Assembly (NCBI GenBank): GCA_023957335.1
Contig: JAMLHC010000001.1
Span: 330,017 to 394,016, forward strand
Origin: Bacteroidota bacterium
Lineage (GTDB): Bacteria > Bacteroidota > Bacteroidia > NS11-12g > UBA955
Length of the DNA stretch: 64,000 bases
Direction of reading: 5' to 3'
The position numbers and the translations under genes were made by a program. Of this stretch, positions 18,743-48,670 are shown piece by piece. Each line of letters opens with the position of its first letter. Positions within the stretch are counted from its first letter, which is position 1. The notes under the pieces are model-generated. The model was given only the letters and a program-made list of their open reading frames with translations, ran no database searches and was not told the DNA's origin.

Positions 18743-19858
18743 TTAGTTGAATATCCTATTAAAAAAAGAGGACTTATTTTTTTTATCGTTAATATCCGGA
18801 GTAAAGTTTTGAGATTCTGCGAGTTTCTTCATCAAGCCTTCTTCTTCTTTGCTAATTTTTGAAGGAATAAACACATTCACCCTTACAAATTCATCTCCGG
18901 TATTATACCCATTGATATCCGGCAGCCCTTTACCTTTAAGTTTTAGTGTTTTACCACTTTGCGTACCCGGTTCTATATTAATTCGTGCTTTGCCTTCGAT
19001 GGTTGGAACTTCTGCAGTACATCCAAGCACCGCTTCAGGGATGCTTATTGTCAACTCAAAAAGAACATTATTTTCTTCTCTTACCAAAAATTCATGTGGG
19101 ACTTCCTCAATTGCAATAATCAAATCACCCGGATATCCTCCTGCAATTTCATTTCCTTTGCCATTCACCGAAAGTTGCATTCCATCCATTACACCCGGAG
19201 GAATGCGCAAAGTTGTTTCAGTATTTTCTTGAATTAACCCTTGTGAGTTTGCTCCCTTTGGCACCTCTCCTACTACTTGACCGCTTCCGCCACAAGTAGG
19301 ACAAGTTGAACTTGTTTGCATCTGTCCTAAGAATGTGTTTGTAACCCTTGTAACAGAACCTCTGCCATGACAAGTATGACATTGTTTGAAGTTCAATCCG
19401 GGTGCAACAGTCCAACGTTTGTATTTGATTTTTTTATCAACTCCTTTTTTTATTTCTTCAAGCGTAACTTTGAGTTTAATCCTAATATTTGAACCACTGA
19501 CATGGCGAGTTCTACCTCCCCCCCTGTTGCTTCCACCAAAAAAACTGCCAAAGGAATCACCAAAAATATCTCCAAACTGTGAAAAAATATCATCCATGGA
19601 CATACCCTGTCCGGAGAAACCTCCTGCACCACCAACTCCTTGATGTCCAAATTGATCGTAGCGCTTTTTCTTTTCCGAATCGCTAAGCACTTCATAAGCC
19701 TCAGCTGCTTCCTTGAATTTCTCTTCGGCTTCTTTATTGTCCGGATTCTTGTCAGGATGGTATTTAATAGCAAGTTTGCGATAAGCTTTTTTAATCTCAT
19801 CGGCATTTGCTGTTTTAGCCACCCCTAACACATCATAATAATCTCTTTTTGTAGCCAT
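18743..19858 (-). CDS. dnaJ: chaperone DnaJ with a half-size zinc centre
   Basis: Hsp40 co-chaperone that stimulates DnaK ATPase and delivers substrates. The J domain (1-70) has HPD at 34-36, followed by a G/F-rich linker ([18 protein letters not shown]) and C-terminal substrate domains. The zinc region has only two CxxCxG motifs (C160/C163 and C186/C189). The other two expected from classical DnaJ are replaced by [13 protein letters not shown]. Related Bacteroidota DnaJ proteins appear to share this reduced form (recollection). It lies three bases after grpE, so grpE-dnaJ is an operon; dnaK is not in the window. Confidence 0.93.
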
Positions 19859-47176: not shown

Positions 47177-47305
47177 GGATTTACCGGTACGATTCAAACA
47201 AAATTTCGCTCCCTTAGACTCGTCCCAATACATTACTATAGGGCTGTTCATGGACAAAGGCATGATGGATTCTTCTTTCTTTTGGCACAGGGGAAGAACT
47301 TTTAG

Positions 47306-47313
47306 TATATTTG
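47306..47313 (+). promoter_or_regulatory. -7 box for the homopolymer-tract operon
   Basis: TATATTTG, 23 bases before the lipoprotein ATG at 47337. It excludes the earlier in-frame start at 47250, which lies upstream of it. Confidence 0.55.
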
Positions 47314-47336
47314 TACAACACTACAACATAGATATT

Positions 47337-47972
47337 ATGAAAACACTATTGAAAAACAGGAACTTATGGCTTATTTCCCTTGCATTGGTTTTGCTTTTTT
47401 CATGCAAGAAAAACGAACCCTTTGATGGCACGTTTGAACTTAGCGGAACTGTGTTTGACGAACTGACGGGCAAGCCCATTGCTTATGCAGATGTGAGAAT
47501 AATTGAAAGAGAAAGAGGCTGGATGGTTGGCTATGCAGGCAAATTGGTTGGCTCTCAAACAGCCAATAAGAAAGGGGAGTTTGTTATTTCTTTTCCTGCC
47601 AAAGAGGAAGGTTTCTCCTATGAAATTGTTGCTACAGAAAATAATAAATATTTTGAAGACAACAATCCTCCTTGGGTAGAATTTACCAAAACAGGCAAAG
47701 GAAGGCAGGATATTACTTTGATGCCTAAAGGGTATTTAAAACTTCATATAAAAGGGAACAAAGGAGGATGGACGATGTCAGGGGGGGGGGGGATTTGGGG
47801 AGACATTATTCAGGTGCTGATACAATTAAAATTATTGCTTATACTCCCAATAAGGTTCAAAAAATCACTTATGTTGTAAGGGATGTAAACGATAATATTT
47901 TAAATACTCAAAAATTTGAAGTTCTTATCCCCCCCCCCCCCAGACACGGCTTATTATCTAATAGAATTTTAA
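47337..47972 (+). CDS. lipoprotein gene interrupted by G12 and C13 tracts
   Basis: Predicted surface lipoprotein (LLFSC, C23) with a carboxypeptidase-regulatory-like beta domain (LSGTVFDELTGKPIAYADVRI, 35-140). As written, the frame enters a G12 tract at 47781-47792, shifts and ends at 47879. With 13 or 10 G it continues as DLGRHYSGADTIKIIAYTPN to a C13 tract (47929-47941). With 12 C this ends naturally as DTAYYLIEF with stop at 47972, about 211 residues in all; with 13 C it ends instead as RHGLLSNRILTQKK. Both tracts are therefore out of frame. Slipped-strand phase variation is the favoured reading; homopolymer miscall is the alternative. Confidence 0.7.
47781..47792 (+). repeat. G12 homopolymer tract
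   Basis: Twelve consecutive G inside the lipoprotein gene, encoding a Gly run. The downstream frame is restored by 13 or 10 G. Confidence 0.85.
47929..47941 (+). repeat. C13 homopolymer tract
   Basis: Thirteen consecutive C near the 3' end of the lipoprotein gene, encoding a Pro run. Twelve C gives the apparently native C-terminus. Confidence 0.85.
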
Positions 47973-47990
47973 CACAAAAGAAATAAAAAT

Positions 47991-48670
47991 ATGAGAACAA
48001 TTAGACACATTTTAGCGGCTTGCCTCGTTTTGGCAGGTGCTTATAACGCACAAGCGCAAATTTTAAATAATATCGGGCTAAAGGGTGGAATTTCCATTTC
48101 TAATCAAAAATATTATTTCAAATCAATGATCGAAAATTTAGATAAACGACTGCCCATCCTTTCGCTTTCATACGCAATCAATGGAGAGATTTTTAATTCA
48201 AAACACTTTAATATGAGCACCGATATCGGCTATACATCTAAAGGCTGTGTGTTAAAAATCCCTTATACTCAGATTGACATGCCTGAAGGAAATGGTACTT
48301 ACAGCTACCTTGACAGCCGTTTTACATTCCTCTTTTTCAATGCAATGGTAAAATACAAATATCCTGTTCGTAGTATCACTCCATACATATTGGGGGGGTG
48401 AGGGCGGATTTTAACATAGCTTACACTTCAGACTTGGATTACACCTCCATAAAAAATTATTTTAAACGTCCTGTGTGGGGTGGTGTTATTGGGGTGGGGA
48501 TAGATTACAGAATTCAAGACTTGGGATTTTTTGCCGAAGGACAATACCACCCCGATTTTACTAAGTTTATTGACATTCCTGTTGCTCAAAACAATGTCGG
48601 ACTAACCGTAACCAACACAGCAGCCCTTGTCAATCTCGGCATTCGGTACTTTCTCACCTCTGCCAAGTAA
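47991..48670 (+). CDS. outer-membrane beta-barrel gene split by a G7 tract
   Basis: Predicted small outer-membrane barrel in two frames. The first part (47991-48400) has a signal peptide (cut after NAQAQ) and strands up to RSITPYILGG, then meets TGA right after a G7 tract (48392-48398). One more G gives LGGVRADFNIAYTSDLDY and joins smoothly to the second part, ending IRYFLTSAK at 48670, about 226 residues in all. The joined protein has the usual alternation and length of the Bacteroidota porin-like barrels. It starts 18 bases after the lipoprotein gene's native stop, so the two probably form an operon. It is either phase-off or carries a base-call error. Confidence 0.7.
48392..48398 (+). repeat. 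G7 tract at the barrel-gene frameshift
   Basis: Seven G immediately before an in-frame TGA. Eight G fuses the two halves of the barrel gene. Confidence 0.7.

Follow-up and report, generated by a model that had tools for sequence, protein, structure and literature searches.

In Helicobacter canadensis, homopolymeric tracts near the 3′ end of a gene change the C-terminus of the product, and one of the possible frames merges two coding sequences (PMC2823697). Slipped-strand phase variation has also been described in Neisseria and Campylobacter (PMC5320596, PMC8355987). For Bacteroides, the surface phase variation on record is brought about by DNA inversion (PMC5903667, PMC10939037), and a review (PMC11868660) names Bacteroides for invertible DNA and for an early phase-shift report, and for nothing else. 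In the open-access literature we did not find any homopolymer (poly-G/C) phasome in Bacteroidetes.

Here we describe a lipoprotein gene in a 64-kb stretch of DNA, called the window below. From its sequence and that of its relatives, we consider it likely to be a slipped-strand phase-variable (contingency) gene, one of six shuffled paralogues, with internal tracts for on/off and for C-terminal switching. Very probably, it is a homopolymer on/off switch of the Neisseria or Helicobacter kind, which is hardly known in this phylum. Among known systems, Helicobacter canadensis comes closest, and the likeness lies in poly-G/C switching inside genes, in late tracts that alter the C-terminus and in merged frames like that of the paralogue at L083 8526. 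However, in Helicobacter canadensis mostly single genes of various kinds are concerned and the length ranges come from reads, whereas here the lengths are known from assembled sequences and we deal with one paralogous lipoprotein family of another phylum, in which both kinds of tract occur in one gene. The systems of Neisseria and Campylobacter are alike in their G/C homopolymers, their surface products and their several loci per genome, but their proteins are not homologous to the lipoprotein family. To our knowledge, serial tracts within one gene family are not known in these two genera. Inversion in Bacteroides belongs to the same phylum and likely serves the same purpose (surface variation), but it is driven by recombinases and involves no homopolymers. 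If our reading is true, the phylum has a second mechanism of surface variation besides DNA inversion, and a single gene whose serial tracts join an on/off choice with a choice of tail would form a compact switch with several states.

The features of the locus are the following, in window coordinates.

47235..47297, + strand: what is left of the N-terminal coding stretch (GLFMDKGMMDSSFFWHRG) of a secreted protein, a duplication scar; the same stretch is found in L082 and L083
47282..47313, + strand: candidate promoter, TTG then TATATTTG (Bacteroidetes -7 box TAnnTTTG), from a pattern scan
47337..47780, + strand: lipoprotein gene, first segment, with a signal peptide with lipobox (LLFSC) and a CarboxypepD_reg-like domain, from translation, Pfam and paralogues
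47781-47792, + strand: G12 tract, exact position and length read from the sequence
47793..47928, + strand: lipoprotein gene, second (variable) segment, in a frame other than the first, from translation and profile match
47929-47941, + strand: C13 tract, exact position and length read from the sequence
47943..47972, + strand: conserved tail DTAYYLIEF with its stop codon, sharing its frame with the first segment, from the sequence and paralogue comparison
47991..48391, + strand: first segment of an outer-membrane beta-barrel gene (PF13568 matched with E 3.7e-5, under the curated cut-off)
48392-48398, + strand: G7 run where the frame of the beta-barrel gene breaks, exact position and length
48398..48670, + strand: beta-barrel gene, second segment, in another frame, up to the stop, from translation and a weak OMP_b-brl match

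The original prediction had been that G12, C13 and G7 each break a reading frame; we found the three runs at these places, and three-frame translations gave the breaks as described. Its further claim, that long G/C runs are rare in this DNA, holds for G12 and C13, G7 being no longer than chance would give. In fact, the window has a GC content of 38% and, besides G12 and C13, no G/C run above 7; the sole other run of at least 7, G7 apart, is a C7 at 19518-19524, which sits within an intact 371-aa ORF. When the window was modelled with Markov chains of first and third order (5 Mb simulated), 0 runs of at least 11 and 0.9-1.7 runs of at least 7 per 64 kb were expected. We therefore ruled out a chance origin of G12 and C13, which have the longer-than-chance length of the tracts of a slipped-strand phase-variable gene, while G7, by length alone, needs no explanation. 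The encoded protein does not force a chain of such codons either, since in the window GGG is the rarest Gly codon (8.7% of Gly codons) and CCC accounts for 26% of Pro codons.

The promoter-like site, with the -7 box consensus TAnnTTTG reported for Bacteroidetes (PMC10309648), ends 23 bases 5′ of the lipoprotein ATG at 47337. By eye, the translation starts with a signal peptide with a lipobox cysteine, MKTLLKNRNLWLISLALVLLFSC, as in an outer-membrane lipoprotein. PF13620 was matched with E 6e-5, the score being 23.8 bits for the window copy and 27.4 for a paralogue versus a gathering cut-off of 32.3, and the CarboxypepD_reg-like domain is hence to be read as a resemblance only. The lipoprotein family profile gave no meaningful match when searched against solved structures. 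The frame of the first segment, followed through G12, hits a stop at 47877-47879, and the out-of-frame segment behind G12 matches the profile of the lipoprotein family (window 47798-47956, profile 150-202, E 6e-8). This match and the conserved tail confirm, by homology, the frames on both sides of the tracts. Precisely, it is the tract length that sets the frame, as seen in the frames around each tract, in the profile match of the shifted frame and in the conserved tail. The window copy, as assembled, is off at G12.

Frames that are conserved on both sides of a tract, though the assembled gene is broken, would also be found with programmed slippage, in which RNA polymerase or the ribosome slips and a fixed sequence gives mixed products. 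Programmed sites, however, keep a fixed shift, whereas here paralogues and species differ in tract length and in how the frames relate, and one paralogue needs no shift to be in frame; we consider this explanation very improbable.

Behind C13 the three-frame translation offers three tails, namely DTAYYLIEF, RHGLLSNRILTQKK and a short one ending in TRLII, each followed by a stop. C13, 9 residues short of the stop, is hence a tract that switches the tail and not an on/off tract, a point that the original prediction had missed. The tails of the paralogues read DTAYYLIEF, DTAYHLIEF, DTAFYLIEF or DTIYHKIEF. Two homologues of another genus (L099, L100), intact and without tracts, end in DTVEHLFEF and DTMDLKLEF, i.e. 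in DT...EF and a stop, and the existence of such tract-free homologues suggests that the tracts are recent in the lineage.

In the phase-variable reading, a promoter of the Bacteroidetes type would drive a lipoprotein whose N-terminal domain is CarboxypepD_reg-like and whose C-terminal region is variable, and slipped-strand mispairing in replication would add or remove bases at the mid-gene G tract. One of the three length classes of the G tract would read into the variable region and the other two would truncate the protein. The length of the C tract would then pick DTAYYLIEF or one of two other tails or, in one paralogue, read-through into the next gene. We infer that the tract lengths change reversibly within a clone and that the lipoprotein products are exposed at the surface, in which case the benefit would presumably be variation of the exposed surface (recognition by grazers, phages or hosts).

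The genome from which the window was taken (2.77 Mb, 7 contigs) has six copies of the lipoprotein gene at three places: the window copy on C1; C2:297740 and 298729; C2:504004, 507250 and 507895. The locus is thus one member of a genome-wide set, and the idea of a single two-protein contingency locus was abandoned. All six copies have a C-run, or an interrupted one, directly before the tail (C13, C8, C8, C14, C6TC6 and C8, in the order given above), and four have a mid-gene G-run (8-12 in the window copy, C2:297740 and C2:298729; G6 in C2:507250). The tract site is kept across paralogues of 38-54% identity. In the assembly, C2:298729 carries G8 and C8 and is intact and in frame throughout, C2:297740 has its frame cut by its G-runs, C2:507895 carries another tail and C2:504004 has a frame that continues into the next gene. 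At L083 8526-8817, where the tract is C14, the lipoprotein frame runs on into a truncated secreted gene, which gives a fused frame. The copies C2:504004 and 507250 are 93.5% identical over 619 bases, with one single gap, at the tract. Searches with TIGR04134 (radical SAM-associated putative lipoprotein) matched the intact paralogues with E 3e-7 and 30.6 bits versus a cut-off of 39.8, and there was no match to this profile in the window copy.

For a comparison within the genus we used one genome, G001 (MAG, JAGFIU01), in which the C2:297740 gene has a nearly identical counterpart (98% identity over about 1 kb, 99% over 6.7 kb). In the 6.7-kb comparison some short gaps fall at the far edge; apart from these, there is a one-base gap at the C tract and a gap of five bases past the stop. 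The C tract is C8 in our genome versus C9 in the congener, and this one-base difference flips the frame of the tail. Another fragment from the congener, with C10, is likewise out of frame with the conserved tail. In a second lipoprotein family, unrelated in sequence and located at C3:310665-312782, gene 1 has G9 with a broken frame, versus G7 with an intact 236-aa frame in the congener, and gene 2 has C12, in frame, versus an ordinary non-repetitive stretch in the congener and in G021. From G9 versus G7, C12 versus no run and C8 versus C9, it follows that tracts were gained in the lineage and that their lengths differ at fixed sites. Lengths therefore vary both between species (C9 versus C8, G7 versus G9) and between paralogues (C8 to C14); homologues with other tract lengths, as the original prediction had proposed to look for, do exist (C8 to C14 in paralogues, C9 and C10 in the congener).

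Our genome has 29 G/C runs of at least 8 and 13 runs of at least 9, the most among 57 relatives. The coding runs of at least 9, six in number, lie without exception in the two lipoprotein families, which span about 6 kb and in which 0.03 such runs are expected, a figure to be used as a guide only because the families were defined after seeing the tracts. Most relatives have 0-3 runs of G9 or more, though some reach 10. Of the 29 tract sites sampled in relatives, many lie between genes or leave the frame intact, and they have no family in common. We ruled out an order-wide habit of long runs on account of the few runs in most relatives and the lack of a common family. A tract-broken gene of another family of the order was seen in G054 (L060 1498), where a C12 lies in a reading frame of 296 codons that is followed by 327 codons in another frame.

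The broken frames could also come from the assembly, if the genes were truly open and the assembled tracts one or two bases too long or too short. No method counts runs of 12-14 easily, and in some relatives (G035, G016, G031) the runs are at contig ends. But such an error cannot create tracts or their conserved place. Moreover, the frame is kept at all nine G8/C8 runs of other genes and not at the C8, G9 and G7 of the lipoprotein family, and the independently assembled congener is also out of frame at G9 and C9. A general homopolymer error of the assembly is ruled out by the nine in-frame runs, and we regard wrong tract lengths as a highly unlikely cause of the broken frames.

The coding changes bear on whether the family is functional. 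In the first segment, the comparison of the window copy with paralogues gave 22 synonymous and 10 non-synonymous codon changes, and another copy gave 24 and 9; this excess of synonymous changes shows purifying selection on the N-terminal part. Between C2:504004 and 507250 there is 1 change in 52 codons in the second segment and 26 in 121 in the first; in the window copy, an almost equal first segment is joined to a different second one. Such unequal divergence shows that segments were exchanged among copies.

The surroundings bear signs of duplication. The stretch 47255-47769 is 89.5% identical to L083 7855-8368, and at other loci the secreted protein usually lies 3′ of the lipoprotein. On C2 and C3, the lipoproteins precede proteins of 1355 and 1634 aa that carry T9SS type A sorting domains. 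At L082 9326-13393 and L084 11799-16703, the tract-bearing lipoproteins are followed by large secreted proteins in which T9SS sorting domains are present, the first of them also having a PGAP1-like esterase region. Truncated N-termini of the L082 secreted protein are scattered between lipoprotein copies. At L083 8814-10681 there are three tandem lipoprotein genes of ~200 aa (RPTELPPITTEGKNTFGxxVDGELLVPYPRKAIKDNF), which are in tandem in the congener too (L088). No relatives were found in viral contigs.

Two paralogues are without an intact start: C2:504004 is shifted after its ATG and C2:507250 has no ATG. These lost starts and the truncated fragments of the secreted gene indicate that decay accompanies the family, and with such decayed neighbours partial pseudogenisation may have taken place. 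One may go further and consider the whole as a pseudogene cluster, in which a duplicated family is decaying, the G/C runs are mutational hot spots and frames are lost without any reversible function; copies without a usable start, the neighbouring fragments and the breaks in both the lipoprotein and the barrel of the window would agree with it. Decaying genes in DNA of 38% GC, however, should not grow and keep G12, C13 and C14, and the tract site would not be expected to stay conserved among such distant paralogues. The purifying selection on codons, the fully intact paralogue with G8 and C8 in frame and the fresh appearance of tracts in an unrelated lipoprotein family also speak against this explanation, which we hold to be unlikely. 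The slippage phase variation of the original prediction is accordingly retained as the probable reading for the lipoprotein, on the conserved tract site, the congener lengths, the confinement of runs of at least 9 to two families and the purifying selection, and not for the barrel. We ruled out loss of mismatch repair as the cause of the long runs, as MutS and MutL are both present in the genome; their presence does not favour high slippage at mononucleotide runs and so counts against phase variation.

The beta-barrel gene had been put forward as the second phase-variable gene. Its halves, of 136 and 90 residues in different frames, both match OMP beta-barrel models weakly; searched singly since the frame is broken, the first half scored 24.3 bits with PF13568 versus a gathering cut-off of 27.0. 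A barrel homologue in G007, 34% identical, has a single open frame across the place of G7 and matches both halves. Hence the barrel frame is indeed broken at G7, and the gene is probably off too. But the length of G7 is at chance level, and we found no paralogue of the barrel in its own genome and no copy in the congener. Switching at G7 is possible, the position of the run being the one point in its favour, and a simple frameshift would be as likely as phase variation there. The signal-peptide region of the barrel is common to the secreted protein of L082, 47935-48058 being 74.6% identical to L082 9268-9393.

A wider reading, which we offer tentatively and with less than even confidence, would be a genome-wide homopolymer phasome made of two-tract lipoprotein families, mosaic variable halves among partly silent copies, T9SS-secreted partners and poly-G promoter spacers at TAnnTTTG, all newly acquired in the genus. 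Runs of 8-10 G are found directly 5′ of TATATTTG and 3′ of TTG at G000:C3:105708 (L023 1502), C3:110350 (L024 1502) and C7:57 (L037), with spacer lengths of about 16, 21 and 23. From this placement before the -7 box, promoter-spacer phase variation is possible. Two of the three sites have about 50 further downstream bases in common and may be copies of one repeat. The longest run of the genome is an intergenic G23 at G000:C2:126057-126079 (L038 4058). At L025 1501, a long inverted repeat (TTAGAGAAAGGG...CCCTTTTCTCTAA) just 5′ of a 489-aa gene contains a G8, and this arrangement looks like a terminator or an attenuator.
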